A stretch of 64,000 bases of DNA from Arthrobacter sp. B3I4 (GTDB taxonomy: Bacteria; Actinomycetota; Actinomycetes; Actinomycetales; Micrococcaceae): contig NZ_JAUSYK010000001.1 in assembly GCF_030816855.1 (NCBI RefSeq), forward strand, positions 3,286,001-3,350,000. The letters run 5' to 3'. Under the pieces are notes generated by a model that was not told the origin of the DNA, made no database searches, and saw only the letters and a program-made list of their open reading frames with translations. A program made the translations under genes and the position numbers. Shown one piece after another: positions 41,194-58,732 of this stretch (its first letter is position 1; every line of letters begins with the position of its first letter).

Positions 41194-42587
41194 GGCGCTG
41201 GCGCTCCCGCGGTGTCATACATGGCATAGTCGTCGGTGATCAGGGTTCCGTTCGCAAACAGGTTCAATCCGAAGCTGATGCCGCTCGCACCGGCCGGGAG
41301 GGGCGGCGTCGTCCAGCTCGCCTTCTGGAAGGCGGTCGCGGGGGCGAACCAGGGGCTGGAGGTCCAGTAGGCCCACGACCCGATGCCGGTCCGGTAGTAG
41401 AGGGCGAACTGCGTCACGGCCGTTGACTTATACCAGGCGGAAATGGTGTAGGTATGCCCGGCTGTCGCACCGGGCGAGCACCCGCCAAGGTCGAGCGCAG
41501 GCAGGAACTTCGCATCCCCGCTGGCGTAACCCGTCACGACCAGGCGCTCGGCAACCGCGCCCGCGTGTCCCGGCGCCACGACGTTGAAGGCGGCCGTGTT
41601 CGTCCCGTAACCACCCTGCTGCCAGCACTGCGGGACCCCGCTGACGAGAGTCTCCAGATCCGGGTTCTTTACCAGGTTTCCGTTGGTGGCCGGGGGCGGT
41701 ACCGCGGGCCCGGCGACCACGGGCTTGACCGTGCCGCCAATAACCTGGTTCACCGTTTTCACCGAGGTCGTTGAGGGCCTGGCCTTAAGCCACGTCGCGA
41801 ACTGCGACAGCAGGGTAGGCGTGATGTTCAGTGGGTCGGCGCTGGACGCCGCGACATGGTGGAACGTCAGCTGCACCCATCCGCCTCCCCCGGTCTCGGC
41901 CTGGGTAACGGATTTCTGCAGGTCAGCAAGGGTCCAGGACGAGTCCTCTTCGTCCGGCGCGGCCGTGTTGAACGCGTTTCCCGGCGGGATGCTCTCTGCC
42001 AGCGGACAGTCCGCACAGCTGAACCGGGTCTTGATATCACCAAGACCCCTGGCACTGTTGTACCCGCAATTCTTGGCGATGGCCTCAACGGCGGCATTCT
42101 CGGCCGCGAAAGGATACGCGAAGTTGGTGACCCGGAAGCCCCACTTCGTCAGGTTCACCCGGTCGTTGCAGATCTGCCGGGTGGCTTCATCCGTTGTCAG
42201 CGTCGTGAGGTCCGGGTGGGTAACAGTGTGGCCGGCGATTTCGTGGCCAGCGGCGGCCAGGCCTTGGAGGTTGGCAACGGTCATGTAATTCGGTGTTCCA
42301 ACCACACCGGAGGGGACGAAGAACGTCCCTTTTAGCCCTTTAGCGTTCAGGACCTGCGCCGCGTTCAGCTGGTCGGCGTTGGCGTCATCGAACGTGAGGG
42401 TCACAACGGTGGGTGAAGCAGCCACTGCCGGCGCGGTGCCGGCTGCCAGCCCTGCCACGGTCAGGGCGAAGACCGCAACAGCCGTGGTGGCCTTGGACCA
42501 AAAAGTGCCGCCGGCCCAATGGCTGGCGGCCGTCCGCCAGCGCTGATCGGTCCGCCCGGCTGGAATCGTTCGCTCGGTCGCGTTCAT
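41190..42587 (-). CDS. Secreted polysaccharide deacetylase (NodB domain) with C-terminal binding module
   Basis: A 465-residue exported enzyme expected to remove N-acetyl groups from a GlcNAc-containing polymer. The signal segment is at about 33-57 (ending APAVAA). The NodB domain follows: TLTFDDANAD (Asp67-68, base and metal), HEIAGHTVTHPDL (metal His120 and His124) and the later LTFHHVA. From about 310 a beta-sandwich like CBM4/9 starts (NLVKNPDLETLVSGVPQCWQ) and should bind carbohydrate. It lies upstream of, and is coupled to, the GT2 synthase. The transcript probably begins near 42886 at a conserved activator-type promoter, giving a 300-base leader. Confidence 0.9.
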   Translation of the reverse strand: MNATERTIPAGRTDQRWRTAASHWAGGTFWSKATTAVAVFALTVAGLAAGTAPAVAASPTVVTLTFDDANADQLNAAQVLNAKGLKGTFFVPSGVVGTPNYMTVANLQGLAAAGHEIAGHTVTHPDLTTLTTDEATRQICNDRVNLTKWGFRVTNFAYPFAAENAAVEAIAKNCGYNSARGLGDIKTRFSCADCPLAESIPPGNAFNTAAPDEEDSSWTLADLQKSVTQAETGGGGWVQLTFHHVAASSADPLNITPTLLSQFATWLKARPSTTSVKTVNQVIGGTVKPVVAGPAVPPPATNGNLVKNPDLETLVSGVPQCWQQGGYGTNTAAFNVVAPGHAGAVAERLVVTGYASGDAKFLPALDLGGCSPGATAGHTYTISAWYKSTAVTQFALYYRTGIGSWAYWTSSPWFAPATAFQKASWTTPPLPAGASGISFGLNLFANGTLITDDYAMYDTAGAPAP

Positions 42588-42892: not shown

Positions 42893-42937
42893 AGCGTAGG
42901 GACCGGCCATTTAGGCGGCACGAGTGACCTCTACTCG
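42893..42937 (-). promoter_or_regulatory. Activator-type promoter A (deacetylase-synthase operon)
   Basis: Read on the minus strand: dyad box CGAGTA-N6-ACTCGTG (42919-42937), 20 bases, -10 TACGCT (42893-42898), with the conserved bases CGGTCC just before the -10. The -35 position holds GTGCCG, a poor match. The box centre is about 42 bases before the predicted start (near 42886), a class II activator position. The same layout recurs at 47796-47841 and 55843-55887. Confidence 0.65.
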
Positions 42938-43120
42938 TTTTTAGCGTGCCCAGATTCCGGGTAGTGAACGCGCCAGTACTCAGTAGCCGTTCGACCATGG
43001 CGCAAGCGTTCACAGGTGGTTCGGAGGGGGCGAAAACGGGCAGCACAAACCGTTCCGTGGCCCCCCGCGGCATGGTGAAATGGTGTTTTATGACGGGACT
43101 TCAGGGGATGGAAGGGCCCA

Positions 43121-44269
43121 ATGACAGCGGACAGCGGGGCGGACCGGGTCGTGGAAACCACCGCTTCCGCCCGTCGAGGGGACCGGCATCGCCGTCGCCT
43201 TCGGCCGGGCCGGAAGCACACCCTGGGGCGGCGCGGTGTCATCCTCGCTTCAGTCGGACTGATCGCATTGGGGGCATTCGTCTTGGTGGCTAGTCTCGGC
43301 GGAGAACGTGAGGCCGGCAGCCCGACGTGGTTCGCCGGCTATGTCGATGTGACTTTAGACCCTGGATACTCCTTCGAAACCGGTCCGGAGAAGGACGTTA
43401 TTCTTGCGTTCGTCGTCGCCTCACCCGCAGACTATTGTTTGCCCAGTTGGGGAAGCCGCTACAGCTTCGATGGCGCTGCGCAGGCGGTGGACTTGGATAA
43501 CCGGTTGGCGGAGCACCGCGCCCGTGGCGGCCGTGTGGCCGTTTCCTTCGGCGGTTCGCTGAACCTGGAACTCGCGAATGCGTGCCTGGATGAGGGCGCC
43601 GTGGCTTTGGCGTACCGGCAGGTCCTAGACAGCTACAACCCGGTCGCCCTGGACTTCGATATCGAAGGTGACAACCTGCTGGATGCCGCGGCCGGCGTAC
43701 GGAGGGCCAACGTCGTCAGCAGGCTCCAGCGCGAGGAAACGGCGCTGGGCCGGAAGCTTGAGGTCTGGGTGACGCTTCCGGCGTCCCCGAAGGGACTGAC
43801 GGACGCTGGCGTCAACGCGGTCGAACAGATGCTCGCGGCCGGGGTCGAGCTGGCGGGCGTTAACGTCATGACCATGAACTATGGAGCGAGCCGTCCTGCT
43901 GCCGAGGACATGTTGGAGTCCTCCATCTCCGCGGCGAACGCCGCTCATGACCAGCTCAGCGCCCTCTACGAGCGCCAAGGACTTGGCCTTAGCAGCGACG
44001 AGGTCTGGCAGAAGCTGGGCCTCACACCAATGATCGGCCAGAACGATCTTCCCGGCGAGGTTTTTGCGCTGGCTGCCGCCCAGAAGCTCCGTGCCTTTGC
44101 TCTCGACAAGGGCGTCCAGCGTCTTTCGATGTGGTCTTTGAACCGCGACGTTTCGTGCCCCGAAGGGTCTCTTCCTGCCACAGCCAGCCACGTATGCAGC
44201 GGCGTCAGCCAGCGGCCCGGGCAGTTCGCCGAGATCCTGGGGAACGGCCTCAACGGGCGGATGGGATAG
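43121..44269 (+). CDS. Membrane-anchored GH18 (chitinase-like) glycoside hydrolase
   Basis: A 382-residue protein with a basic cytoplasmic start (RRGDRHRRRLRPGRKH), one membrane helix (39-59) and an outside GH18 barrel. Catalytic landmarks are intact: VAVSFGG on strand 3, LDFDIEG with Glu182 as acid on strand 4, VMTMNYG on strand 6, and LSMWSLNRD near the end. It has no carbohydrate-binding module. GH18 enzymes cut beta-1,4-GlcNAc chains, so this could trim or release the polymer made by the adjacent minus-strand genes. ATG 43121 follows GAAGGG closely. It has its own upstream region and converges with the lipoprotein gene. Confidence 0.84.
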   Translation: MTADSGADRVVETTASARRGDRHRRRLRPGRKHTLGRRGVILASVGLIALGAFVLVASLGGEREAGSPTWFAGYVDVTLDPGYSFETGPEKDVILAFVVASPADYCLPSWGSRYSFDGAAQAVDLDNRLAEHRARGGRVAVSFGGSLNLELANACLDEGAVALAYRQVLDSYNPVALDFDIEGDNLLDAAAGVRRANVVSRLQREETALGRKLEVWVTLPASPKGLTDAGVNAVEQMLAAGVELAGVNVMTMNYGASRPAAEDMLESSISAANAAHDQLSALYERQGLGLSSDEVWQKLGLTPMIGQNDLPGEVFALAAAQKLRAFALDKGVQRLSMWSLNRDVSCPEGSLPATASHVCSGVSQRPGQFAEILGNGLNGRMG

Positions 44270-44276
44270 GGCAGGG

Positions 44277-45041
44277 TTACTGAACGGGCGTCCGCGTCTC
44301 CAGCTTCAGCCACGGTCCGTCCGGCACGTCCTTTCTGTCCACAAACTGCCAGTCAACCTTGTCGTCCTGCCCGTTCAGTTCCTGGAAGCCGAGGCAACCG
44401 TTGAGGGCAGGAGAAACATCCATGCCTGCACCGTTGAAGTCCTTGTTCTTGGGCCGGGCGTCATCCTTGCCAAAGACGTACTCCTTGTCCTGGTACTGGC
44501 CCGGACCGGCATCCTCAATCTGCCCGTAGCACTCCCGCCCGTTTTTGCGGATCTTGACCCAGCGGTTCTTCATGAAGCTGACCCCCGGAGCGTTGGACTG
44601 GCGCGCGAGGCCTGGCTCCTTCGCCCAGGGAATGACGGAAGCACGCTCAGCGAACGCGGCGGCGTTATTGACGTCGTCGTATGGCAGATCAAGGTAGAAG
44701 GGGTTTTCGCGGGGTGTCATGCTGCTCGGGAAATAACCGTTGGCGCTGCTTCTGGGTTCGGTCTGGCAGCCGTCCCTGCCCACCACCCCGTCGCAACCGC
44801 CATAGCTCTGCATCCACTGGCTGTCGTAGGTGGACATCACCTGGCTTCCGTCCTCCGCCTTGGGATCGAACACTTCCCCGACCCAGAACGTGGTCGCCAC
44901 GATGCCGGTGTGCCACGGATATTCCTGTTGCGTTGGCGGCCCGGGGGCAGGCTTGGGCCCGGAACACGAGGTCGCCAGCACCGCCACCAGGCCGGTCGCC
45001 GCACACCGCTTGAGGACAGATTTACTGGGCCGTCGTGCCAT
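44277..45041 (-). CDS. Lipoprotein of unknown family (paralogue of 38927-39855)
   Basis: A 254-residue predicted lipoprotein: signal segment with lipobox LATSC, acylated Cys near 26, then a Pro-rich spacer. The body holds TTFWVGEVFDPKAEDGSQV, YGGCDGV, ENPFYLDLPYDDV, MKNRWVKI, CYGQIEDAGP and GMDVSPALNGCLGFQELNG. The clustered Gly/Asp/Cys positions near the end suggest a double-psi beta-barrel or similar wall-active fold, but this is only a guess. It is the last gene of the dehydrogenase-epimerase unit and intact, unlike its paralogue. A cell-wall or polymer-binding role would fit the context. Confidence 0.75.
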   Translation of the reverse strand: MARRPSKSVLKRCAATGLVAVLATSCSGPKPAPGPPTQQEYPWHTGIVATTFWVGEVFDPKAEDGSQVMSTYDSQWMQSYGGCDGVVGRDGCQTEPRSSANGYFPSSMTPRENPFYLDLPYDDVNNAAAFAERASVIPWAKEPGLARQSNAPGVSFMKNRWVKIRKNGRECYGQIEDAGPGQYQDKEYVFGKDDARPKNKDFNGAGMDVSPALNGCLGFQELNGQDDKVDWQFVDRKDVPDGPWLKLETRTPVQ

Positions 45042-45079
45042 CTACTCCACTCTCTCGTGATGCGGCGCCGCTTTCCGGC

Positions 45080-46087
45080 CTAGTTGGCCACCATCGTGCC
45101 CTTCCACTGGACCGGGTCCGGTTTCCCGTTCGGACGGTAATCTGCGGCGACGCTCCGGATGATCTGGTCCAGTGTCGTCTGCGGATCGAATCCGACGAGC
45201 TCGCGGGCTTTGCTGTTGTCAGGGACGCGCCGGCGCATATCCTCGTAGCCATCGGCGTAGGCCTCCTGGTAGGGGACAAACCTGATGTCGCTGTCGCTGC
45301 CGAGAAGCTCCACAATGCGCTCCGCAAGCGCGAGGATGGAGACCTCATGACTTCCCCCGAGGTTGTAGGCGTTGCCGTATGCCGAAGTTTTCTCTGAAAT
45401 GCCGGTGATCGCGGGCACGATGTCCCCCACGTACGAAAAACACCGCGTCTGCTTGCCGTCACCGTAGACCGTGAGCGGCTCTCCCGCAATGGCCTGTTTC
45501 ACCAGTCGCGGCACAACCATCCCGTAGCGTCCGGTCTGCCGTGGTCCCACGGTGTTGAACAGCCTCACGATCGCGACCCGAAGCCCGAATTCGCGCCAGT
45601 AGGCATGCGCGAACGCCTCGTCGATCCCTTTAGCGGCGGCATAGGTCCACCGCGACTTGAGCGTGGATCCGAGGATCCGGTCTGCTTCCTCGCTCAGCCT
45701 GTCCGAGGTGTTCTTCCCGTAGATCTCACTGGTCGAGGCCAGGAGAAGTGACGCGCCGTTCGCCAGGACGGAATCCAAGACAACCTCCGTGCCGTGAATG
45801 TTCGTGCGCAGACTCTCCAGGGGGTGCTCGACGATGAGGTTGACCCCGACGGCGGCTGCGAGGTGGAACACGCGGGTTGCCCCGACGGCCACTTTGTCCA
45901 CGGCGGACCTGTCGAGGATGTCCCCTTCGACGAAATGGAACCTGGGGTGTCCAATCACGTCCCGCAGGTTCTCAAGCCTGCCGGTGGAAAGGTTGTCCAG
46001 GGCGGTGACCTCGTCACCGGCAGCCAGCAGATACTGGACGAGATGACTTCCAATGAAGCCGGCGCCCCCCGTAATTGCGGTCTTCAT
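45080..46087 (-). CDS. NAD-dependent sugar nucleotide epimerase/dehydratase
   Basis: A 335-residue extended SDR acting on an NDP-sugar. NAD binds at TGGAGFIGSHLVQ (6-18), the catalytic Tyr149/Lys153 are in WTYAAAKGIDE, Ser118-120 in LASTSEIYG, and the substrate-side motif is RLFNTVGPRQTGRYGMVVPR. These fit UDP-glucose/GlcNAc 4-epimerases or UDP-glucuronate decarboxylases; the STSEIYG and GPRQ motifs lean to the decarboxylase/4-epimerase branch. It lies 39 bases after the dehydrogenase gene, so the two probably supply an acidic or modified sugar donor for the synthase. Confidence 0.88.
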   Translation of the reverse strand: MKTAITGGAGFIGSHLVQYLLAAGDEVTALDNLSTGRLENLRDVIGHPRFHFVEGDILDRSAVDKVAVGATRVFHLAAAVGVNLIVEHPLESLRTNIHGTEVVLDSVLANGASLLLASTSEIYGKNTSDRLSEEADRILGSTLKSRWTYAAAKGIDEAFAHAYWREFGLRVAIVRLFNTVGPRQTGRYGMVVPRLVKQAIAGEPLTVYGDGKQTRCFSYVGDIVPAITGISEKTSAYGNAYNLGGSHEVSILALAERIVELLGSDSDIRFVPYQEAYADGYEDMRRRVPDNSKARELVGFDPQTTLDQIIRSVAADYRPNGKPDPVQWKGTMVAN

Positions 46088-46126
46088 TGCTCCGACGATC
46101 CTTTCTGGTGTCTATGGAGCATCGGC

Positions 46127-47548
46127 TCACAGCCGCGTCACGTTGGAGCGGCGGGGAAGTCGATAGGTGGTATCGAGCACGGCAGGGGCTTCCGCCAGCC
46201 AGCCGGCATCCATGGCTGTGTGCTTGGTATGCAGGATCACCAGATCCGTCTGCCAAAGCTTCGGATCCTCCAGTGACTGAAGTTGTCCGCCGTGCCCGTC
46301 GGGTGCAGTGGGGCACCAGGGATCGTGGTAGGCCACCTCGGCGCCGTCGGCGAGCAGCTCAGCGATGATTTGCAGCGCCGGGGATTCCCTCAGATCTTCG
46401 ACGTCGGGCTTGTAGGCCACGCCGAGCACGAGAATCCGGGCGCCGGTGAGGCCGTGGCTGCGCTCGGAGAGAATCGTCCTGGCCTTCGCAACAACCTGGT
46501 GCGGCCGGCCGGCGATGTCCTCCATGGCATGTTCGATGACCGGGGCGGTGATGCGTGCCTTACGCAGCTGCCAGAGCAGATAGTGCGGGTCGCACGGGAT
46601 GCAGTGGCCACCAACCCCGGGGCCGGGGGTGAACGCCATAAAGCCGTACGGCTTTGTCGACGCCGCATTGATGACATCCATGACATCCATATCCAGCGTC
46701 TGGCAGATGTCGGCAAATTCATTGGCCAAGGCGATGTTCACGGCACGGAAGATGTTTTCCGCCAGTTTTGTCATCTCCGCAACGTCAGCCGAGGGGACTT
46801 TGTGCACCAGTTTCGTGCTCAGTTTCAACAGAGCTTCGGCAGCATCGCCGCAGCTCTGGGTCACCCCGCCGACGACCCTCGGGACGTCTTCGTGGGCGAA
46901 GGCGTCAACCCCCGGGTTGATCCGCTCGGGCGAGAAGGCCACAAAGATGTCCCTGCCCGGAATCAGTCCTCTGGCGGCCAAGGGCACTGCCAGCAGGTCC
47001 CGGGTGCAGCCGACGTAACTTGTTGAGGTCAGCATCAGCAGCTGGCCGGGGACGGCAAACTCGACCACGGACGCGCACGCCGCGCGAAGAATCCGAAGGT
47101 CAGGGACGAGGTAGGCGTCCACGGGGGTCGGGACGCAGACGATCACCGCTGCGGCCCGGGCGAGCAGCGAGAGGTCGGTGCTGATCAGGAACGAAGGATC
47201 GTGGAGAGCCACATCCAGCCTGGCTTTATCCGAGTCCAGAAGATCAGCCTCCTGGGAGCGGATGACGGCCAGCCGGGCCTCGGAGGCATCGAGCCCAAGA
47301 ACCCGCCTCCCGGAGGCGTTGATGGCCAGCGCGGTGGGAAGCCCCACGTAGCCCAGGCCCACGATGGCCACATCGAAGCTAAAGGCCTGCTCCGTCTCGG
47401 CGCTTTCCCGGGCCGGCGCCGCCGTCGCGGTCTGAACCGGCGGCCCGTCTCCGGAGAGCTGCTCCGGCCACTGGTGCGCCGCCTCCGTCCCTGGCTGAAC
47501 TGCCGCGGCCGTGTTCCGGCGGTTCTTGATCTTGGTGTTGGGCGTCAT
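46127..47548 (-). CDS. Nucleotide-sugar 6-dehydrogenase (UDP-ManNAc/GlcNAc dehydrogenase type)
   Basis: Oxidises the 6-OH of a UDP-sugar to the uronic acid with 2 NAD+. A 50-residue disordered N-terminus precedes the Rossmann motif IVGLGYVGLPTALA (62-75). Catalytic Cys316 is in GPGVGGHCIPCDPHYL, and the C-terminal domain has GVAYKPDVEDLRESPA. The HCIPxDP form is typical of WecC/TviB-type enzymes. ATG 47548 was chosen for GGGAGG upstream; an in-frame start nine codons earlier is weaker. The predicted start of transcription is near 47789, leaving a leader of about 240 bases. It heads the unit with the epimerase and lipoprotein. Confidence 0.9.
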   Translation of the reverse strand: MTPNTKIKNRRNTAAAVQPGTEAAHQWPEQLSGDGPPVQTATAAPARESAETEQAFSFDVAIVGLGYVGLPTALAINASGRRVLGLDASEARLAVIRSQEADLLDSDKARLDVALHDPSFLISTDLSLLARAAAVIVCVPTPVDAYLVPDLRILRAACASVVEFAVPGQLLMLTSTSYVGCTRDLLAVPLAARGLIPGRDIFVAFSPERINPGVDAFAHEDVPRVVGGVTQSCGDAAEALLKLSTKLVHKVPSADVAEMTKLAENIFRAVNIALANEFADICQTLDMDVMDVINAASTKPYGFMAFTPGPGVGGHCIPCDPHYLLWQLRKARITAPVIEHAMEDIAGRPHQVVAKARTILSERSHGLTGARILVLGVAYKPDVEDLRESPALQIIAELLADGAEVAYHDPWCPTAPDGHGGQLQSLEDPKLWQTDLVILHTKHTAMDAGWLAEAPAVLDTTYRLPRRSNVTRL

Positions 47549-47795
47549 GGTTCTGAGACCTCCCGGTATCCCCACGGTCCTGCTGGTAGTTATATGCCGC
47601 CGGGCCCTGATTTTTGTATGCCGCTGAAGGGTCGACGGCGAAGGAGTCCGGGTACAGAAGCTCCCCGCTCGACAAAAGCGCAGGAGCGTTCTCAGCTCCC
47701 GGTCGAATCGGTGCCGAGGGCACCGGGTGCAAGGGGCTTTGCTTGACGGCCCCTGTGGCCGGGAATCCGCAGCGCAGTTCCCGGGACCTGATTTC

Positions 47796-47841
47796 AGCGT
47801 AGGAACCGAGTCCTACTGCCAGCACGAGTGTGCTCTACGCG
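47796..47841 (-). promoter_or_regulatory. Activator-type promoter B (dehydrogenase-epimerase operon)
   Basis: Minus strand: box CGCGTA-N6-ACTCGTG (47823-47841), 21 bases, -10 TACGCT (47796-47801), with CGGTTCC before the -10. On the plus strand the box and its flank match promoter A at 24 of 29 positions. The dyad GTAGGA/TCCTAC (47799-47804, 47811-47816) overlaps the -10 and spacer. The -35 position holds TGCTGG, a poor match. The box centre is about 43 bases before the predicted start. Confidence 0.65.
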
Positions 47842-47979
47842 TCTTTACCGCCCTGAGGGCACACCGGCCGCGAGGAAATACCCATTAAGCCTCAGCCGCA
47901 CCACTCGCTCGGTACTCTAGGACACGGCATTCCGGGGCCGAGAGCGGGGCCCCGTTTCGCCGGAATGGTGCCGTTGCGG

Positions 47980-48447
47980 CTACTGCCCCGACTGCTGGGC
48001 GAGCGCCTGGCCGAGGGCATCCTCGGCGGCAACCCAGGAGAGCATGGCGCACTTCACCCGCGCGGCGTAACGCGATACACCTTCGAAAGCGGCCGCGTCG
48101 CCCAGGAGCTCCGGATCGGCCGGCACTTTCCCGCGGGAGCGCAGCACTTCCCGGAAGCTGTCAATGACCCGGCGCAATTCGTCGGGGTCCAGGCCCTCGG
48201 CGAGGTCGGTGAGCACCGAGGCGGCGGCCATCGAGATGGAGCATCCTTCTCCGTCCCACCGCAGCTCGCTAACCTTGCCTCCGGCCACTGCGACCCGCAT
48301 AGTGATTTCGTCGCCGCAGACGGGGTTCAGCTGGTGCGACTGGCCGACGGTGGCGCCCTCCGGCTCGCCGGCGGCGGCGAGGCCGCTGCCGTGCCGTGCT
48401 TTGGAGTGCTCCAGGATGATTTGTTGATACAGCTGGTCAAGGCTCAT
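47980..48447 (-). CDS. sufU: SufU-type Fe-S cluster assembly protein
   Basis: A 155-residue zinc-binding sulfur acceptor that takes persulfide sulfur from SufS. The three ligand cysteines are in NPVCGDEI, GEGCSISMAAAS and RVKCAMLSWVA, and the Asp beside the first is present. The SufU-specific insert between the second and third cysteines (about 18 extra residues, LTDLAEGLDPDELRRVIDSF) distinguishes it from IscU. The C-terminus is Ala/Gln rich. It starts 12 bases after the SufS stop, so it is the second gene of a sufSU operon. The rest of the suf cluster is not in this window. Confidence 0.93.
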   Translation of the reverse strand: MSLDQLYQQIILEHSKARHGSGLAAAGEPEGATVGQSHQLNPVCGDEITMRVAVAGGKVSELRWDGEGCSISMAAASVLTDLAEGLDPDELRRVIDSFREVLRSRGKVPADPELLGDAAAFEGVSRYAARVKCAMLSWVAAEDALGQALAQQSGQ

Positions 48448-48459
48448 GCAGTGCCGTCC

Positions 48460-50360
<1,901 letters not shown>

Positions 50361-53009
50361 CTAGGACGGTGGCGGATCATCCTCAAGGCCAATGTCGACC
50401 AGCTCCGACCGGCGGCTGACGCCGAGTTTCCCGAAGATCCGGTACAGGTGCCCCTCAACGGTCCGGGTGGATAACGTCAACGCCGTTGCGATCTCCATGT
50501 TGCTCGCGCCGCGGGCCACCAGCTTCAGAATCTCGGCTTCCCGCGCGGTCAGGTCCGCTTGTTGGCCGCCGTGCACGATGTTGATGCTTTCCGACATTCC
50601 GGCCGCGACCATCCGGTGATGGACCTTGCGCTGGACCACCGTCAGCCTCCACTTATGCGGGTCGTTTTCCAGGCAGCGCGCAGCCTGCTGGGCCGCCTCC
50701 AGGGCTAACAACAGATAGCCGGCGTTCATCGCCTCGTCGCTGACTGCCGTCAGCGCGGCGGTGTCCGAAGCCGCGACGCCGCGGGCGTAGATCCTGAGCA
50801 GCTGCCCCTCGTGCCCTTCCACTGCTGAAGTGCTGCCTTCCAGCGCTTGGGCTGCGGTGGTGTCACCGTTGCGCAGGGCAAGCCGCAGGATCTCTGTCTC
50901 CACACCCCTCAACCCCTCCCCCCGAGCCAGCTCGGCCAACTGTTCCAGCCGTTCCGAAGTGTCCTCCACACTGTGAAAGGACAACTCGGCGGCCGTGCAG
51001 TAGGCATCGGCGAGTAGCCGCAGGGTTTCTGGATCCCGCAAGGGTGCGCTGCGGAACGCCCGGGCGTTCTCCTCGGCCTCGTCTTGGCGTCCGACCGTGG
51101 CGGCGGCGTACGCGGCCAGGGCGTGCGCGAAGGGGCCCATGTTCCAAGGATCCGCGATGGCCAGTTCCTCGACCGCTAGCAGCAGTTCCGCCAGGCTCTC
51201 GGGAAAGCGGCCCTGCCTCACCCTGGAGTAGCCCCGCATCAGGTGCAGCAGGCCGCCCCCGTACAACAGCCGGGACGGCAGGCCAGCGGCGTAATCATCC
51301 ACGGTCGACGCGAGTTCGTCCCACTCCCCGGCCCTGATCAGATTCAGGCAGTGGTTCGCCAGCACGTCTTCGTAGACCAGCGGCAGCCATCGGGTCGCGT
51401 CGGGGGCATCCGGCCACGCGTGGCGGTCGGCCTCCAGCGCGGCCACGACCCTCCCTTGGGCGGACTGCAGCTCGGCAAGCCGGGAGATCGCGGGCACCTG
51501 GATCTCGGCGATGCCCGTGGCCTCATCCACAAGTTCGTGCAGGCGCTCGGAAAAGTCCGGCCCCGCCCCCTCGTCGCGGGCCGCCAGCAGCGACAAGGCC
51601 AGGCCCGGAGCGGCCGATTCCGTCCAAAGCCGGCATGCGGGATCGGCGTTCGCATCCCGTGGTGAGGCTGCTCCTGCCGGCGGTCCGACCGCCGGTGCGG
51701 CTACCCGGAGCCTGGCTGCGAGGAGCGCCGCGAGTATGGCGGGACGCCCGTACTCCAGCGACCTGGCCGAGCTGAGGTGGCTGGCTGCTGTCTCCCGCCG
51801 TCCGAGGAGGTAGTCCGAATAAGCGAGCTGGACCCTCGCTTCCGGTAGCAACGGCCCGTCCGGAACGGCGCTGCCGGCCCTGCGCGCCGTCGCCGTATCC
51901 AAGGCGGCGTTGGCCGCCGTCGCAGCTTGCAGCAGCTCCGCAGGGGAAAGCAGGGCCCCGCAGTCCAATGCCCAGCGAAACCGGTTCAGGAAAGCCTCCG
52001 GATGGGCGGTGCCGGCCCCGGGAAGAGCCAGCAGGCTGGCCCGCAGGCTGGCGCTGCGACCGGCGGGGACACGGTCCCGGAGGATTTCTCCGACGAGCGG
52101 GCTTGCCGGCCGGACTGTGCGGTCCTGGTCCCGGGAGACGGTGATAATCCCTGCCATCTCCAAAGCGTCGACGGTCTTGGGGTTGCTGAATTGCAGGACT
52201 TGTCCCAGCGAAAGCGGCCCTGCCAGGGAAACGATCGCTGCCACGCTTTGTTCCTCGGCCGGCATCGATCGCACCCGGTGGTCGACCAGGTCCGCCGCCG
52301 GGACCTTGCTCAGGACCGGAGGGCTGATCAAGTACCAGGTGCCCTTGCGCGGCGCGATGACACCGGTCTTTCGCGCATACTCGACCAGGGACTTCAGCAT
52401 GTACGGATTTCCCGCGGTCACTTTGCCGAACAGCTCGCTCACCCACGGCGACGCTTCAGCCCGCAACGCCTGTTCACAGAACTGATGGATTTCAGAGCGG
52501 GTCAGAGGAGGGAGGTCGTACTTGGCAATAAGACCGTCATCCCACAGCGCCAAGAACTCTTCCGGCATTGACGGTCCGGGACTGCACGCCGCGAGCAGTC
52601 TCGCCGCCCCGGTGGCCACGGCCTGGGCGACCAGCTGGACGGTCCCCCGGTCCAGGGAGTGGGCATCGTCGACCACGAAAAGCGGCGGTATCGGCTCTGC
52701 CTTCAGTCTCGCGGTGACGGCCCGCGAGATGGCTGCGGCTGAGTCCAGGTCATGGGCCGGGAGACTGTCCAGGTAGGGTGCCAGAACACCGAAAGGCACG
52801 GCGGACAGCATCGGGGTCGGGGCAAGCCGGATGACGGCGCCGCGGGGCTGCACCTCGCGCAGCACTTCCCTGATGACGGCGGTCTTGCCTGACCCGACGC
52901 CGCCCACGACGATAGCGCCGGAACGGCTTTCGTCCCTCAGGCAGGCCGCCGCATCCCTAACGACGCCGGACCGGCCGATAAGCGCCATCCCGTCCGTTAG
53001 GCTCTCCAC
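50361..53009 (-). CDS. LuxR-family STAND ATPase regulator (LAL type), array member 1
   Basis: An 882-residue regulator: N-terminal AAA-like/STAND ATPase, long helical repeat region (about 350-790), C-terminal LuxR HTH. Walker A is GGVGSGKT at 36-43, and Walker B is LFVVDDAHSLD at 110-120. The HTH (about 815-870) reads LTAREAEILKLVARGASNME, then TLSTRTVEGHLYRIF. In this family ATP and a small ligand or protein drive the active oligomer that switches on transcription. GTG 53009 follows AAAGGATCTGA. It lies 58 bases behind the second array gene, probably on the same transcript from promoter D. Its targets are unknown; see the shared box. Confidence 0.9.
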   Translation of the reverse strand: MESLTDGMALIGRSGVVRDAAACLRDESRSGAIVVGGVGSGKTAVIREVLREVQPRGAVIRLAPTPMLSAVPFGVLAPYLDSLPAHDLDSAAAISRAVTARLKAEPIPPLFVVDDAHSLDRGTVQLVAQAVATGAARLLAACSPGPSMPEEFLALWDDGLIAKYDLPPLTRSEIHQFCEQALRAEASPWVSELFGKVTAGNPYMLKSLVEYARKTGVIAPRKGTWYLISPPVLSKVPAADLVDHRVRSMPAEEQSVAAIVSLAGPLSLGQVLQFSNPKTVDALEMAGIITVSRDQDRTVRPASPLVGEILRDRVPAGRSASLRASLLALPGAGTAHPEAFLNRFRWALDCGALLSPAELLQAATAANAALDTATARRAGSAVPDGPLLPEARVQLAYSDYLLGRRETAASHLSSARSLEYGRPAILAALLAARLRVAAPAVGPPAGAASPRDANADPACRLWTESAAPGLALSLLAARDEGAGPDFSERLHELVDEATGIAEIQVPAISRLAELQSAQGRVVAALEADRHAWPDAPDATRWLPLVYEDVLANHCLNLIRAGEWDELASTVDDYAAGLPSRLLYGGGLLHLMRGYSRVRQGRFPESLAELLLAVEELAIADPWNMGPFAHALAAYAAATVGRQDEAEENARAFRSAPLRDPETLRLLADAYCTAAELSFHSVEDTSERLEQLAELARGEGLRGVETEILRLALRNGDTTAAQALEGSTSAVEGHEGQLLRIYARGVAASDTAALTAVSDEAMNAGYLLLALEAAQQAARCLENDPHKWRLTVVQRKVHHRMVAAGMSESINIVHGGQQADLTAREAEILKLVARGASNMEIATALTLSTRTVEGHLYRIFGKLGVSRRSELVDIGLEDDPPPS

Positions 53010-53067
53010 TCAGATCCTTTCCCCGGCGGCCGCTGGCCCCGTGGTCGCGACGGCCGGCTCCCCTTGA

Positions 53068-55800
53068 TCACCCGATGCGTGCGTTGCCGGTTGGACCGGC
53101 GATAGCCTCTTTGAGCTCCGACCGGCTTGCCAGGTGCAGTTTCGCGTACACCTGGTACAGGTGGCCTTCCACGGTGCGTACGGAAACCTGCATCTGCTCC
53201 GCGATTTTGCGGTTGGAGGTCCCGGCCGCAGCCCGAACGGCCACCTCGCACTCCCTGGCGGTGAGAATGGACGACGTCAACGCCTGCAACCCGTTCTTGG
53301 GGCCGCCGAACCGGTCATCCAGGGTGTGTTCCGTCCGCTGCGCGACCCTGAGCGCGATCCGGTTGCCGGCTTCGTTCGCGCAGGTAACGGCTTTCCTTGC
53401 CACATCCCTGGCGAAGACCGCGTCCCCGGCCGCGTCGGCGTCCTTTGCGACCGTCAGAAGTGCCTCGCTTGCAGCCTCCCTCACGCCGGTGGCCAGCCGC
53501 TGGCACAGCATCGCGAACTGCCCCGTCACCTGCTCGGCGAGGCTTCCGAGCTTCTGGCTCATCTGCCGGTCACCCAACCTGGCGGCGGCGGACTGGAACA
53601 ACAGCCCAACAGTGGTTGAACCGCGCTCCACATCCTTTTCCGCTTCGGCCGCAAGCGCGCGGATGGCTGCTGCACGCTGGCCAAGTTCAGCCTCGGCACC
53701 CAGCTGGAAATACCGGGTCATCCTGCCGACCAGCCAGGACCCGGGCAACTCCTGCCCGCCAAGTTCAGCGAGCAGCAGCCCGGCTTCCTCCGTGTCCCCG
53801 TGCAGTCCCGCCGCGTAGGCGGCGGCAGCCACTGCCAAGGGTGCCAGGGAGTCCCTGTCATGGGTCCGCAGTTGCCAAAGGCCGGCGTCCAGTCCGGACA
53901 GGGCCTCGTCCAACCGTCCGGCGTGCAGATCGATCAGGCCCTGTCCGATTTCGAACATTCCGCCCAGACGCGACTGGGAATCGGAGGTCTCGGAAGTCAG
54001 TGCAAGGAACTCCGCGGCCTCCCGGAACCTTGACGTCAGCAGCATCAGGAGCAGGAAGCGGCCCCGAAGTTCCCGCATGGACTGGTCCGGCAGCTGGACT
54101 GCAGCGGCAGACGACAAAACCTGCTTGCCCAGCGCGATGGCTCCCAGGACGTTGCCGGTGACAGTCATCGCCTCACACAGCAGGCCTCCGGCCACGATGC
54201 CGGCTTCCGTGTTCAGGTCAGCGACGTCGAGTTCGCCCCGCATGGCGAGTACATCCGCGTAGCGTCCTTCGTGGACGGCGAACCGGGCTTCGGCAAGGAG
54301 CAGCTGCGTGCGCGCCGATACTGCGGCGGCGCTGTCCACTTCGGCCCGGGCCTCGAGCCGCTGGCTGAGTTCCTGCAGCCGCGACGCGACGGCAGGGACG
54401 GCGCCGCGCTGGTCGATGTCTGCCAGGAGAAGGTTGACGGTGACCCACTCAGCGACCGGCAGCGTGTCGTCAGCCGTCTCGACCAGCTTCTGCAGGATCC
54501 GGCGTGCGGCCTCCTCATTGCCGAGGCTGAGGTGGGCGCGGGCAGCCTCGATGGCGCCGGCAGGAACCGCCTCAAACCCGCCGACTGCCTGCAGGAACCG
54601 CAGCGCGGCCGCCGAATCCGAGGCGTTATTAGCACGCTGCGCTGCGGCGAGGGCCAGAACCGGGCTGATCCGTTCCCCGCAGTCCAGTGCCCATGCGACG
54701 CCGGTGGGGCCGCCCGGCTCCAGTTCCTCGTCGCCGCCCAGTACTGCGGTAAGCCGGCGTCGCAGCTCGGCACTGCGGCCCGGTGGCACGACGCTTGCCA
54801 CGATGGCGGCTGTTACCGTGTTCGCGACACAGACGGTCGGCGTGTGATCGTGGCTGACCTGGATAAGTCCCCGTTCCTGCAGGGTGTCCATGTCGTGCGG
54901 GTTGAAGATGCTCATCAGCGTCTGCAGGGGCAAGGCGCCGGCCAGCGCCAGCATCTCGAAGACATCGCGTTGTCCCGCACTGAGCCGGTTCATCCTGGCC
55001 TTGACGACATCACGGACTTCCCCGGTCAGGGAGATCGGGCGGCTGCCGAGCACCCAGGCCCCGTCCTGACGCGTGATCGCGCCCAGTTTGATCTGCTCCC
55101 TGGCCAGGGAGTGCAGGAAGAGAGCGTTACCGCCGCTGGCGGTCCACAGGGCCCGGACCGCGGTGTGGGAGAAATGGCCGCCATACTCCTGGTTCAGCGT
55201 CGCGGCCGTCTCGGCAAAGTCAAACGGCTCCAGGTCCACCCGGCGCAGCAGGTCGTCCTTCCAGAGACCCATGATGTCGCCGCCGACATGGGGAAGGTCA
55301 ACGCAAGCGGCGAGCAACGTCACGTGGCCCCCGGCGCTGAGCTGGGCAACCATCATGCAGGACAGGTCATCCAGGTCGTGGGCGTTGTCCACGAACAGAA
55401 CGATGCCGCGTCCCTGGGCCTTCGCGTGGAGCAGATGGATAAGTCCCCGCAGCACCATGAGAGGGTGTTCCAGGTGCGAGGAATCAAGGTCGTTGAGCAG
55501 CACGCTCAACGCTCCGTACGGAAGTTTCGAGGAAATCGAGCTGCCACGGACCTGGACGACCAGGTACTCCCCGCCGAGTTGTTCCAGGGCACGCTGCGCC
55601 ACGAAAGACTTTCCGGCACCGTGCTCCCCAACCAAAACGACGCCGCAGCCGGACTCTGAGGTCAGGGTTTCCACGACGTCGTCAATGATGTGTTGCCGAG
55701 TTAGTTGTTTGTCATACCGCCTCTGGGCTGGGCGCTGCGCTGGTGAAATCACATCGGTTTTACCGCTGCCAGCGGGCACGCCGGCTTCTTGCTGAAACAT
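53068..55800 (-). CDS. LuxR-family STAND ATPase regulator (LAL type), array member 2
   Basis: A 910-residue paralogue of its neighbours. Walker A is GEHGAGKS at 58-65, and Walker B is VLFVDNAHDLDDL, with Asn in place of the second Asp. The HTH near the end reads LTARECEVAVRAAAGTSNRK, then VSVRTVEGHLYQVYAKL. The middle 500 residues form TPR-like helical pairs. ATG 55800 was preferred over TTG 55821 because GAAGG lies eight bases before it. Promoter D ends about 43 bases upstream, so this gene is the best candidate for autoactivation by the array. No partner enzyme is linked to it directly. Confidence 0.9.
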   Translation of the reverse strand: MFQQEAGVPAGSGKTDVISPAQRPAQRRYDKQLTRQHIIDDVVETLTSESGCGVVLVGEHGAGKSFVAQRALEQLGGEYLVVQVRGSSISSKLPYGALSVLLNDLDSSHLEHPLMVLRGLIHLLHAKAQGRGIVLFVDNAHDLDDLSCMMVAQLSAGGHVTLLAACVDLPHVGGDIMGLWKDDLLRRVDLEPFDFAETAATLNQEYGGHFSHTAVRALWTASGGNALFLHSLAREQIKLGAITRQDGAWVLGSRPISLTGEVRDVVKARMNRLSAGQRDVFEMLALAGALPLQTLMSIFNPHDMDTLQERGLIQVSHDHTPTVCVANTVTAAIVASVVPPGRSAELRRRLTAVLGGDEELEPGGPTGVAWALDCGERISPVLALAAAQRANNASDSAAALRFLQAVGGFEAVPAGAIEAARAHLSLGNEEAARRILQKLVETADDTLPVAEWVTVNLLLADIDQRGAVPAVASRLQELSQRLEARAEVDSAAAVSARTQLLLAEARFAVHEGRYADVLAMRGELDVADLNTEAGIVAGGLLCEAMTVTGNVLGAIALGKQVLSSAAAVQLPDQSMRELRGRFLLLMLLTSRFREAAEFLALTSETSDSQSRLGGMFEIGQGLIDLHAGRLDEALSGLDAGLWQLRTHDRDSLAPLAVAAAAYAAGLHGDTEEAGLLLAELGGQELPGSWLVGRMTRYFQLGAEAELGQRAAAIRALAAEAEKDVERGSTTVGLLFQSAAARLGDRQMSQKLGSLAEQVTGQFAMLCQRLATGVREAASEALLTVAKDADAAGDAVFARDVARKAVTCANEAGNRIALRVAQRTEHTLDDRFGGPKNGLQALTSSILTARECEVAVRAAAGTSNRKIAEQMQVSVRTVEGHLYQVYAKLHLASRSELKEAIAGPTGNARIG

Positions 55801-55842
55801 GAGAGAGACCTTCGCAATCAATGGTTAGCCAGTGATAGCTCC

Positions 55843-55887
55843 ACCGTATGGACCGGTCTTCGGAAAGGCACCCGTAAGTGGTACTCG
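55843..55887 (-). promoter_or_regulatory. Activator-type promoter D (LAL genes 2 and 1)
   Basis: Minus strand: box CGAGTA-N6-ACGGGTG (55869-55887), 20 bases, -10 TACGGT (55843-55848), with CGGTCCA before the -10. The layout equals promoters A and B. The predicted start near 55836 lies 36 bases before the ATG at 55800, and the box centre is at -42. Confidence 0.62.
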
Positions 55888-56023
55888 ATTGCGGGCGGGT
55901 AGAAAACGCCCTGCCTACGCGGCTGTACTCATACCCACCGGTGAGGGCCGTGTTCGGAACCAAGTAGTTTCCCGGCTCCCCCGGGTGTTCCAGCTCTAGG
56001 GCCTCAGATTCAAGCAGGAGTAC

Positions 56024-58732
56024 TCAGTCCGCGGCAATCCGGCGAAGGTCTTCGCGGCCCTTGATGTTCAGCTTGGCGTAGCTGCGGTAAAGGTGCCCTT
56101 CCACCGTGCGGACCGATACGTGCAGTTCGGCCGCTATCTGCCGGTCACTCAGGCCCCGGACGGCCAGCGCCACGATATCACGCTCCCGGCGGGTGAGCAG
56201 ATCGAGCGCACCGTGCTGACCGTCCGGCTCCTCGCCGGCCGCGCTTTCAGCCACGTCGCGGCAGCGCTGCTGCTGGGCCTTGGCCATGCGCTCACGCAAC
56301 GTGTCGCCCGCCTCACGGTAAGCAGCGGCCGCGGCTCCGTATGCCTGGGCGGCGAAACCCCACAGTTCGGACTCCTCGCAGACTTTCGCCGCTTCGAGCA
56401 GCTCGCCCGCCTGTTCCCGCTCGAGTGCCACGGCGTAACCGCAGACCGCCGCAGCCCGGCGTCCTTCCAGCTCCGGCTGCAGTTCCCGCAGCCGCGCCGC
56501 AGCGGCCCTATCACCAAGGGCGAGCCGGAACGTCAAGGCGTTGAACTCGAGTCCCGCCGCGGCTTTGCCGCCGGGCGTTCCGAGCCTTTGCAGTTCCTCC
56601 ACCGCGCCGCGATGGCCGTCCAGGCGCGCCTTGCCGTACACCACGGCCATGGCCGCCAGGGCGCGCAGGTAGCGCGACGCCGGTGGCCGGGATGACTCGT
56701 AGTCGGCCAGCAGCTGGGCGGCCTTCGCTTTCGCGCCAATCTCCGCGGCAGCGGAAAATGCCATCGCCGCCGTAAGGGAAAACAGTTGCTGGGGGTCCGC
56801 CAGCCGCAGTGCTTCCAGGGCCGCCCGCAGCGTCTTTTTGGCTTCCACCGCCCGGCCCTGGTAGAGCATCATGATGCCGGCAGCCGTGTGAACCGCGCCC
56901 CCTAGGGAGATCAGGCTTGGCCCGAACGACGCGGCAAATTCTCCCAGCAGCGTCTCCACGGCACTCCAGTTCCCGCCATGGATCACTGCCGTGACGGCGC
57001 GGACCATCAGGTAGTCCGATAGGAAGTGCAGCTCCTCGTCCTCAGTTCTGGCCGCCTGCAGTGCTGCTCCCGCCACCTTGTAGGCACTGTCCGGCTTCCC
57101 CTGAATGAGAAGTCTTTCCGCTTCCAACACCAGCCTGAACGCCTGTTCCAGGCCGCTGGCCCGCTGCCCGTCGAAGACCTCGCCGGTCGGGTTCCCGGCC
57201 GCTTCCTCGTCGCCGGCCAGGGCCAGGACCATGCTGTGGATAGTGCGCACCCGGTCCCTGGTCGCGGTCAGGATGGCGTCTGCGTCCTCCGGGTTGTCCC
57301 GGGCCAGCCGGTCCCCGGCCAGCAGCAGCGCTTGGGAGCGGTGCACAATTTCCGCCGGAGGATGCCCCAGCGCGGACAGGACCGCCGCCCACAGCAGGGA
57401 GCCGCTCAGCAGGCTCGAAACCGTGCGGCCCTTGCCGAAATCGCCGTCAAGGATGTCGAGGGCCGCCGCATGGTTGGAGGTGTTGTAGTAAGTCTGGGCA
57501 GTCACACACCGCGCCGAGATTTGCAGTTCCGGGTCCTTGACCTGGGAAGCGGCCTTGCGAGCCAGCTCGTCTTCGGACAGTCTGGCCGCCAGCCCAGCGG
57601 CCCTCAGCAGTTGCCGGTCATCGACCTCCAGCCCGCACTCCAACGACCAGCTCACCTGGCGCAGCAGCGCTTCGGCGGACGCCGGTTCGCGGTCCATCAG
57701 CCGCAGCAGGTCCTGGCGCAGTTGCAGGCTGCGCGCCGGCGAAACCAGGTTGCGCAGGGCATCCCCGTAAACGGCATGCCAGAGCCGCAGTTCGGGCTCC
57801 GCGCCACCGGTGACGCGGAGGAGTTCCTGTTCGATCAACCCCGCTACGGCGGTTCCGCCGACCATGGCTTCGATCAGCGCCCTGGGCACGGGTTCAGACA
57901 ATGCCACGAGATTCAGAGCCGTGCGCTCCTCCGCCGAGCGCCGAAGCAACTGGCGCCGGACAACGTCGGTCAACCGTTCGCCGTGGCTGTTCAGCGGCCG
58001 GGTCAGCAGCCACACGCCGTTGCGCTGGATCAGCGTTCCGTCGCCCTTGGCGTCATCGAGCAGGCAGCTGAGCAGCAGCGGGTTGCCGGCCGAGGCGGCC
58101 CACAGCACCTCGGCGACGCTGGGCAGGACCTGGGAACCCAGTTTCTGGGCCAGGAGCTCGGCAGTTTGCTCGCGGGTGAGCGGGCGCAGGTCGTGCCGCT
58201 CCGCGATGCCCTCGAACCATAGCTCGAGGAGCGGCTCCGGCAAACCGGGACGAGCCGCGGAACTGACCAGCAGCTTGGTCCAGCCGGCTGCGGCGAGTTC
58301 CACCAGGATCCCGGCTGTTGCCTCATCCAGGTCGTGGGCGTCGTCGACGATCAGCAGGAGCGGCTTGCGGGTCGCGCGCCGCTGCTCTTCCAGGTAGCTC
58401 CAGAAGGTCCTTAAGACCGCCAGCTGCGACGTGGCATCCTCCACGGGAAGGTCCACGATGAACGGCGCCAGGACTCCGTAGGGCACCTGGCTCAAGGCCT
58501 GGCTGCCGTGCAGCCGTACCGGGGTGACGTCGTTCTGCAGTTCGGCGGCAACGGCCGCCATCAGCGTGGACTTGCCGATCCCGTGGTCCCCCACCAGAAG
58601 CACAGCGGCATGCATGCCGCTCTTGAGCGTTTCCGCCGCTGACCGCAGGTCCTCCGTTCGACCGGTCAGGACCAGCGGCTCCTCCTCGGGCGGGGCGGCC
58701 GGGCGCGCCTTAGATGAGGCCAAGCAGATCAC
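56024..58732 (-). CDS. LuxR-family STAND ATPase regulator (LAL type), array member 3
   Basis: A 902-residue regulator. Walker A is GDHGIGKS at 48-55, and Walker B is LLLIVDDAHDLDEA, both canonical. The HTH at the C-terminus reads LTRRERDIVALAVRGLSDRQ, then VSVRTVEGHLYRSYAKL. It starts at GTG 58732, inside the last 23 bases of array member 4, so it is translated from the same message. The 220 bases downstream of its stop hold promoter D for the next pair. The array is thus two overlapping or closely spaced pairs, 4-3 and 2-1. Confidence 0.9.
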   Translation of the reverse strand: MICLASSKARPAAPPEEEPLVLTGRTEDLRSAAETLKSGMHAAVLLVGDHGIGKSTLMAAVAAELQNDVTPVRLHGSQALSQVPYGVLAPFIVDLPVEDATSQLAVLRTFWSYLEEQRRATRKPLLLIVDDAHDLDEATAGILVELAAAGWTKLLVSSAARPGLPEPLLELWFEGIAERHDLRPLTREQTAELLAQKLGSQVLPSVAEVLWAASAGNPLLLSCLLDDAKGDGTLIQRNGVWLLTRPLNSHGERLTDVVRRQLLRRSAEERTALNLVALSEPVPRALIEAMVGGTAVAGLIEQELLRVTGGAEPELRLWHAVYGDALRNLVSPARSLQLRQDLLRLMDREPASAEALLRQVSWSLECGLEVDDRQLLRAAGLAARLSEDELARKAASQVKDPELQISARCVTAQTYYNTSNHAAALDILDGDFGKGRTVSSLLSGSLLWAAVLSALGHPPAEIVHRSQALLLAGDRLARDNPEDADAILTATRDRVRTIHSMVLALAGDEEAAGNPTGEVFDGQRASGLEQAFRLVLEAERLLIQGKPDSAYKVAGAALQAARTEDEELHFLSDYLMVRAVTAVIHGGNWSAVETLLGEFAASFGPSLISLGGAVHTAAGIMMLYQGRAVEAKKTLRAALEALRLADPQQLFSLTAAMAFSAAAEIGAKAKAAQLLADYESSRPPASRYLRALAAMAVVYGKARLDGHRGAVEELQRLGTPGGKAAAGLEFNALTFRLALGDRAAAARLRELQPELEGRRAAAVCGYAVALEREQAGELLEAAKVCEESELWGFAAQAYGAAAAAYREAGDTLRERMAKAQQQRCRDVAESAAGEEPDGQHGALDLLTRRERDIVALAVRGLSDRQIAAELHVSVRTVEGHLYRSYAKLNIKGREDLRRIAAD

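Follow-up and report, generated by a model that had tools for sequence, protein, structure and literature searches.

Class II geometry is well established for LuxR-type activators, and LuxR and TraR activate transcription in this way at the lux box, a dyad of about 20 bp that is centered near -42 and lies over the usual place of the -35 element. Here we describe a similarly placed dyad box in a 64,000-nt stretch of the genome of Arthrobacter sp. B3I4 (contig NZ_JAUSYK010000001.1, positions 3,286,001 to 3,350,000; this whole stretch is called the window, and coordinates refer to it unless stated otherwise). The box precedes two polysaccharide operons, a unit of regulatory genes and a structured RNA, and it is associated with a tandem array of four genes, LAL1 to LAL4, that encode large ATP-binding LuxR-type (LAL) regulators. 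As at the lux box, the activator proposed here carries a GerE-type helix-turn-helix (HTH), whereas the half-site differs and the candidate activators are ATP-binding proteins of about 900 residues encoded in an array.

LAL regulators are common in actinobacteria and, to our knowledge, few of them have known operators or regulons; the MalT boxes and the heptamer repeats of the SARP regulators are other operators than the box described here. The Qrr small RNAs of the LuxO/HapR system offer a further parallel, i.e., one regulator that drives several similar small RNAs per genome, but the RNA described below is unrelated, its host is Gram-positive, and the proposed activator is a LAL rather than a sigma-54 activator. 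Described LAL regulators include MalT, SCO0877/SCO7173, RevU and the SARP-LAL protein PimR (PMC3282765, PMC5930380, PMC9659744), and MalT and RevU share with the proteins of the window an N-terminal ATPase, a C-terminal LuxR HTH and a length of about 900 residues. The array described here differs from these regulators in that its proposed targets are surface polymers and an RNA family, and in that several LALs are encoded together.

The box motif is conserved in sequence and in placement, the RNA has a conserved, covarying fold, and both co-occur with LAL genes. We give a probability of roughly 0.7 to an explanation in which the LAL array acts through the box as its operator, in class II activation, with polymer genes and the RNA as targets, and in which the RNA adds a post-transcriptional arm to the regulon; that there is a regulon as such is much surer, and we consider it highly probable. 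The LAL regulators and the class II promoters are of known kinds, and the RNA family is new to Rfam; a literature search, with most subscription journals outside its reach, returned no title or abstract opening on the operator, the regulon or the RNA. In this case the sequence suffices to read out operator, regulon and best candidate activators, which gives a direct entry to surface-polymer switching in Arthrobacter-type bacteria and a well-controlled example in which a transcription-factor family, a box and an RNA family have one common phylogenetic range.

Box Promoters in the Window

All four boxes lie on the minus strand. Box 1 (CGAGTAGAGGTCACTCGTG, 42919..42937), with an A-tract immediately 5′ of it, is found 5′ of the deacetylase-synthase operon and is followed, after a spacer of 20, by the -10 sequence TACGCT (42893..42898). 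Box 2 (CGCGTAGAGCACACTCGTG, 47823..47841) is found 5′ of the ugd-epimerase-lipoprotein operon, with TACGCT (47796..47801) after a spacer of 21, and box 3 (CGAGTACCACTTACGGGTG, 55869..55887) in the LAL3-LAL2 gap, with TACGGT (55843..55848) after a spacer of 20. Direct reading of the sequence thus placed these three promoters exactly where a preliminary description had put them, with the same spacers and -10 sequences; the identity of 24 of 29 positions between sites 1 and 2 that it reported was also correct (the stretch begins 9 bases before the box), as was the distance of 42-43 bases from the box center to the predicted start, taken as 7 bases after the -10. Box 4 (CGGGTAAGTCCTACTCGTG, 50214..50232), which had been overlooked, lies 128 bases beyond the end of LAL1 and is followed, after a spacer of 20, by the -10-like sequence TTGACT (50188..50193), the putative promoter of the RNA; in most orthologues this hexamer reads TTTACT, TTAACT or TTGACT.

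Two other elements of the promoter layout as first described fared less well. TACGST is not required, as shown by the -10-like sequences TTGACT and TTTACT of the RNA promoter and by the boxes before relatives' LAL2-type genes, six of seven of which lack TACGST at a spacer of 20 or 21. The sequence CGGTYC does precede all three -10s here, but no conservation of it was seen in 50 sites of other genomes (0.03-0.18 bits at the six positions preceding the -10, from a -10 matrix whose effective number of sites was only 5.3 after look-alikes had been down-weighted).

Box Statistics and Weight Matrix

The three promoters could be alike by chance or by recent duplication, with no regulon behind them, and a simple count is in keeping with this: four plain boxes with at most one mismatch were found in the window (all of them exact) for 2.83 expected, and 32 of 100 shuffles reached four. 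Across the whole genome there are 8 exact boxes versus 2 for the reversed pattern, and four of the eight lie in the window itself, in a stretch of 13 kb. When the -10 was added to the pattern, this genome gave 3 sites versus 0 reversed, and 206 congeneric genomes, scanned with spacers of 18-21, gave 89 sites in 78 genomes versus 9 reversed-pattern sites. According to their coordinates, the spacer was 20 in 59 of these sites, 21 in 28, 19 in one and 18 in one; hence a spacer of 20 or 21 was found in 87 of 89 sites, and likewise in 49 of the 50 training sites of the matrix described next, so that a dyad near -42 at a fixed distance from the -10, the class II arrangement, is observed relative to a predicted start.

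A weight matrix was built from 50 distinct site strings taken from fetched loci of other genomes (G and L numbers denote genomes and loci); the deacetylase-type loci (L005, L013, L021, L022, L031), the sites of this genome (L006-L008), and L009-L012, L059 and L061 were left out. An A-tract 3-6 bases 5′ of the box, which the preliminary description did not mention, carried 0.32-1.61 bits although the search pattern does not demand it, and the T and C of the right half-site were informative though absent from that pattern. On scanning the window with this matrix, the top four positions were boxes 1, 2, 4 and 3 (31.5, 24.3, 23.7 and 15.7), followed by positions at 14.0 and 8.4. In 40 random 64-kb sequences the peak was 9.7 on average and 19.3 at maximum, and therefore sites 1, 2 and 4 stand clear and site 3 is weak by itself; site 3 (55887) rests on conservation, with a G201 orthologue that has the same layout and -10. 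The position at 14.0 is a fifth, weaker dyad at 56015-56033 (minus strand), at the very end of LAL3, with no recognizable -10.

The placement of the fetched box sites is also in favor: 31 of 40 lie outside called genes versus 194 of 1000 random positions, and a gene on the same strand begins or lies no more than 500 bases away for 26 of 40 versus 276 of 1000. The scan of this and related genomes that had been suggested as a check on the first three promoters came out in their favor, with enrichment over the reversed pattern and the window boxes ranked first to fourth. The ranking by a matrix from other genomes, the 89 versus 9 sites across the genus, the orthologous conservation and the enrichment 5′ of independently found RNA copies (both below) contradict chance or duplication, which we regard as very improbable indeed.

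Boxes at Orthologous Positions and Other Proposed Targets

A box precedes the orthologous deacetylase in G012, G059, G084 and G190, and ugd in G190 and in Arthrobacter sp. 9AX (L009), there without TACNNT at that spacing; boxes with 11 of 14 positions precede ugd in G012, G019, G021, G059 and G084. In the G012-type genomes (L048, L049, L059, L061), ugd, the epimerase gene and the deacetylase gene follow the LAL array. The box in the LAL3-LAL2 gap recurs in G014, G030, G012, G019, G021 and G201, and a box is also found 5′ of a LAL2-like gene on contig 3 of G023. Box 4 is the most widely conserved of the window boxes. A box after LAL1 is also present in G031, G023, G018, G010, G190 and G201, and at 20 of 20 relatives' loci the LAL array has a box with a score of 12-14 of 14 either in its late part or at its end. 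G014 and G030 differ in that this box, and the RNA element with it, occupies the LAL3-LAL2 gap. In another set of array loci (L042-L051, L053, L054), 12 of 12 have a box within the array or at its end.

Elsewhere, the polymer or surface genes behind a box include GT2 glycosyltransferases (L055, L072, L084), a sugar transferase (L161), a deacetylase (L170), an acyltransferase (L086) and a LysM protein (L081), and further box- or RNA-preceded genes encode F5/8-type, trypsin-like protease, enolase-like, Hpt and ANTAR proteins. This annotation covers a subset of the targets, namely 29 downstream proteins from outside the window assigned by Pfam. The common theme, as far as these domain assignments go, appears to be the cell surface and extracellular polymers, with exceptions. 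Far from the window, this genome has another box that was overlooked at first (1024714-1024739, in locus L097 at 1020326-1024739; matrix score 34.8). It precedes a gene for a synthetase of the Pls/PosA family (TIGR02353, 614 bits versus a cut-off of 423), and a dihydrodipicolinate synthase-family gene comes next. Since a non-ribosomal peptide synthetase of this family and such a gene follow the box, L097 suggests that a surface poly-amino-acid may be under the same control.

In L001, L002, L003 and L063, a box with TACGCT precedes a gene that weakly resembles HprK-related kinases (under the cut-off); a glycosyltransferase-like gene comes next, and a GH16-like gene lies 5′ (both by eye).

A Structured RNA Element Downstream of Box 4

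The RNA that follows box 4 has a conserved core of 81 nt (49964..50044, minus strand; model R1), defined by alignment, covariation, model hits and fold. This core lies within a predicted small RNA transcript of putative extent 49917..50181 (minus strand), whose end would be a GC-rich hairpin followed by a weak T tail. The core folds into a 13-bp outer stem that encloses a 7-bp inner hairpin (8 bp if a U-G pair is counted) whose loop is CUGAGACC, and CCCCCCAG lies between the outer stem and the inner hairpin on the 3′ side. Compared with shuffled sequences, the z-score of the fold was -5.54 for 49920-50186 and -4.98 for the core. Among 24 orthologues, double-sided changes were seen in 7 of 20 pairs, and 99.4% of the cells were paired versus 31-59% when slid. 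An explanation by coding was rejected, as the open frames across the core vary in length and start among 16 orthologues.

Model R1, which was built from 24 of the 29 cores collected, matched in 204 of 204 genomes of the genus at E ≤ 0.01, with 1-9 matches in each (numbers that include opposite-strand echoes, e.g., the second match of this genome). Among 297 genomes of the order, the RNA was found in 16, i.e., eight of the genus, seven of other genera of the family and one marginal outside it (G445, E 0.0016). No Rfam 15 model matched the element, either in a permissive search of 49700-50450 and 20 divergent-copy loci or in a search at gathering thresholds of the window and four loci; the only rows besides tRNAs were sub-threshold and outside the core (mir-1286, E 0.19, on the other strand; BjrC68, E 0.041). 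That the RNA is a real family is, in our judgment, extremely likely.

Two described kinds of RNA are close enough to be weighed. The 6C RNA (RF01066) is likewise an actinobacterial structured RNA with a C run, but in 6C the C runs lie in two hairpin loops, and here the C run is in an internal loop 3′ of one hairpin. Identity with 6C was rejected, as RF01066 matched neither 49700-50450 (E ≤ 1) nor the 20 divergent-copy loci (E ≤ 0.1); a genome search with this model, of low power in that it gave a match in one of 14 control genomes and above the cut-off in none, found it in 0 of 8 genomes. The ANTAR-target RNAs resemble the element in being structured, actinobacterial and present several times per genome, and ANTAR genes occur in this regulon. 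Their hallmark (PMC8164766) is a pair of hexanucleotide-loop hairpins with A1 and G4. The core, judged by eye and not with an ANTAR model, has no such pair; its outer stem encloses a single hairpin, with CUGAGACC as the loop, and this identity was also rejected on the hallmark as given there.

In related species the RNA also occurs as a leader. It lies upstream of the deacetylase gene at a distance of 19-25 bases in G012, G059 and G084, and upstream of ugd at a distance of 38-39 bases in G012, G021, G059 and G084 (with a weaker match in G019); a box precedes it in both cases, and the ugd-leader copies have a T-rich tail after the outer stem. In G469 it lies 31-32 bases before a sugar transferase gene. 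Other copies precede ANTAR-type genes or overlap their called 5′ end (L190, confirmed by Pfam; L191, L193 and L167, by look). The ugd leader of this genome has a CTGAGA-containing hairpin near 47690, which was taken as a chance resemblance to the RNA.

ANTAR-domain proteins thus recur beside RNA copies and, in L068, L082 (both confirmed by Pfam) and L057 (by look), beside boxes. An RNA subtype without a box was observed at L201, L202, L203, L204, L210 and L173; the next gene in L201, L202, L210 and L173 encodes a similar 85-aa protein, with no Pfam match in L202, the one tested. Different control of this subtype is likely.

Co-occurrence of Box, RNA and LAL Genes

The association of the box with the RNA was analyzed on 81 copies of the RNA (82 rows minus one opposite-strand echo; copies with loci only) from 16 chosen genomes, the order scan and the G012-type loci. 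The RNA model had been built without the box, and the matrix was kept free of RNA-linked sites as far as these could be excluded. A box with a score of at least 6 was present in the 330 bases 5′ of the RNA in 55 of 81 copies, versus 2 of 81 in downstream controls and 12 of 81 in reverse complements, a control that is generous because the box is a dyad. At a cut-off of 10, these numbers were 49, 1 and 1. The frequent distances from box start to model start were 35-37, 108-121, about 150, 184 and 255-264 bases.

The RNA in turn accompanies the LAL genes. In a set of 25 genomes, a LAL4 homologue (E ≤ 1e-20) was present in 12 of 12 genomes with a strong RNA match and in 0 of 13 without one (Fisher's test, 1.9e-7, or 8.7e-5 when only members of the family from other genera are taken; neither value is corrected for kinship). 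Among the 297 genomes of the order, a strong RNA match and a LAL4 homologue were found in the same 15; the marginal RNA match of G445, which has no LAL4 partner, and a lone LAL4 match in G053 (E 3.4e-22, near the threshold), which has no RNA partner, were treated as off-family noise. Seven genomes of other genera carry the RNA, at 170 bases to about 1.6 kb downstream of a LAL match. A strict box pattern occurs in 10 of the 12 LAL-bearing genomes, with 25 sites in total (7 for the reversed pattern), and gave 0 sites (11 for the reversed pattern) in the 13 LAL-less ones.

These distributions bear on an alternative in which the box is the operator of another, unlinked regulator, such as a response regulator of the NarL type, and the LAL array is merely one of its targets. 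The half-site TACTCG resembles the NarL-type heptamers, and Hpt-domain genes are among the box-preceded genes (L064, L077). In addition, REC-LuxR proteins are listed for other Arthrobacter in PMC3466318. An unlinked regulator would not lead one to expect that the RNA and the LAL4 homologues coincide in all 25 genomes (G445 set aside), that the pattern is confined to genomes bearing both, when 9 of the 13 lacking them are from the same family, or that the box is in or at the end of the array in the 12 of 12 and 20 of 20 loci described above; we consider this alternative unlikely. Binding of the box by one or more of the LALs is, in our judgment, probable.

Proposed Mechanism and Its Weak Points

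In the explanation that we favor, the operator of the pth-sufS LAL array would be A-tract-N2-CGAGTA-N5-TACTCG-TG, and one or more LALs, most likely of the LAL3 and LAL4 types, would bind it as a dyad centered near -42 and switch on a promoter in which no -35 is evident. The preliminary description had a LAL protein activating its own operon and surface polysaccharide synthesis. The regulon part of this is supported by boxes at orthologous sites and before surface-polymer genes and LAL arrays, and by the co-occurrence of box, RNA and LAL array, but it was incomplete, for the most conserved partner of the array is the structured RNA and not a polysaccharide operon. As to the activator, LAL3- and LAL4-type proteins are likelier than LAL2 to activate the LAL2-LAL1 unit, because their genes are present at 20 of 20 relatives' loci (in relatives that had been chosen by a LAL match), whereas LAL2 and LAL1 are extras in some. 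The sequence RTVEGHLY, in the recognition-helix region, is common to the HTHs of all four LALs when the C-termini are compared, and therefore they may read the same operator. In the simplest order, LAL3 and LAL4 would activate LAL2-LAL1, the polymer operons and the RNA; the targets in this genome would be LAL2-LAL1, the uronate-sugar operon (ugd), the deacetylase-synthase operon, the distant Pls/PosA-type synthetase operon and the array-end RNA. Activation, the start points and the function of the RNA are all predictions from this arrangement.

An unpaired C-rich tract is a usual seed for pairing with ribosome-binding sites. The RNA, with one to several copies per genome, could thus be the post-transcriptional arm of the regulon, with the unpaired C-rich tract beside the conserved CUGAGACC loop pairing in trans with G-rich translation starts, and where it is a leader, as before the deacetylase gene and ugd in related species, it may act in cis. 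For the trans role the odds appear to be even, and a cis role where the element is a leader is as likely. A two-layer, Qrr-like switch of the surface, self-contained and specific to one family (by our reading the Micrococcaceae), in which LAL array and box drive both polymer operons and a trans-acting multicopy RNA that has also been recruited as a leader by these polymer genes, falls only a little short of even odds.

Several observations weigh against this explanation. As many as 26 of the 81 RNA copies have no box even at the lower cut-off, several of them (L201-L204, L210) sharing one sequence type; the RNA-bearing genomes G343 and G469 lack a match to the strict box pattern, and in G301 and G479 the pattern-matching box comes after, not before, the RNA. 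Conversely, the ugd and deacetylase leaders of this genome contain no RNA by model R2 with filters off, and most fetched box loci of other genomes have no convincing RNA in R1 and R2 scans: R1 over 74 loci gave 21 rows at E ≤ 0.5, convincing only for L053, L054 and L005, and R2 over 32 loci gave 10 rows at E ≤ 0.1, convincing for L053 and L049, with the remainder at 0.00086-0.047. The matrix gives site 3 a weak score, called genes contain 9 of the 40 box sites, and a box also precedes some genes that do not belong to the polymer group (trypsin-like protease, Hpt, enolase-like). Furthermore, the co-occurrence points are not independent, because all of them are within one family, and a same-strand gene lies within 300 bases for only 33 of the 67 RNA copies examined (the 81 minus near-duplicates).

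The last figure also counts against a different view of the RNA, in which it works in cis, as a leader or attenuator that GAF-ANTAR proteins may read, and is not a small RNA that acts in trans. The positions close before deacetylase, ugd, sugar transferase and ANTAR-type genes in relatives are what this view predicts, as is the T-rich tail of the ugd copies, and up to 36 ANTAR-target RNAs per genome are reported for some genera including Arthrobacter (PMC8164766). With 33 of 67, however, a cis role is unlikely to be general; what follows the array copy varies from genome to genome (sufS, LAL2 or a LAL-like gene that is shortened), a -10-like sequence belonging to sufS itself is present after the RNA, and the two hexaloops with A1 and G4 are absent. 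A purely cis-acting element is thus a serious contender but the less probable one, and GAF-ANTAR proteins as general readers of the RNA are only a lead. The reading with a post-transcriptional arm that acts in trans, and in cis where the RNA is a leader, is the one we retain.

Genes of the Window and the LAL Array

The LAL array lies between pth and sufS, on the minus strand, and its four products have the length (882-917 aa) and the domains of LAL regulators. The C-terminal GerE domain was above the cut-off in LAL1 (50361..53009; 6e-16), LAL2 (53068..55821; 9.3e-14), LAL3 (56024..58732; 5.8e-13) and LAL4 (58710..61454; 1.5e-13), and AAA_16 and AAA_22 matched at the N-terminus of all four, AAA_16 being under the Pfam cut-off for LAL1 and LAL4. 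In six genomes with a close LAL2 orthologue, identity was 75-83% for LAL4, 65-72% for LAL3, 62-70% for LAL2 and 51-60% for LAL1.

Box 1 precedes the genes for a polysaccharide deacetylase (41190..42587; Polysacc_deac_1, 3.8e-19) and a GT2 polysaccharide synthase-like protein (39868..41193; Glyco_trans_2_3, 1.2e-20; PgaC_IcaA at 79 bits, far under its cut-off of 422), both on the minus strand. Behind box 2, also on the minus strand, are the genes for the nucleotide sugar dehydrogenase Ugd (46127..47548; NDP-sugDHase TIGR03026, 345.8 bits, above the cut-off), a sugar-nucleotide epimerase/dehydratase (45080..46087; GDP_Man_Dehyd, 1.8e-55) and a putative lipoprotein (44277..45041), judged by eye and matched by no Pfam family. 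The start of ugd is probably the ATG at 47548, behind GGGAGG, rather than the GTG at 47575 of the mechanical open reading frame (ORF). A search of named genomes gave four relatives of ugd.

Divergent from the deacetylase gene, and before it, lies a gene for a 382-aa protein without a Pfam match (43121-44269, plus strand), which is placed in the same way in G012, G059, G084 and G190 (50-69% identity). Finally, a 316-aa ORF (38927-39877, plus strand) and the 254-aa lipoprotein-like ORF (44277-45041, minus strand) look like paralogues flanking the polysaccharide operons, because both match the same stretches of L010 and L011.

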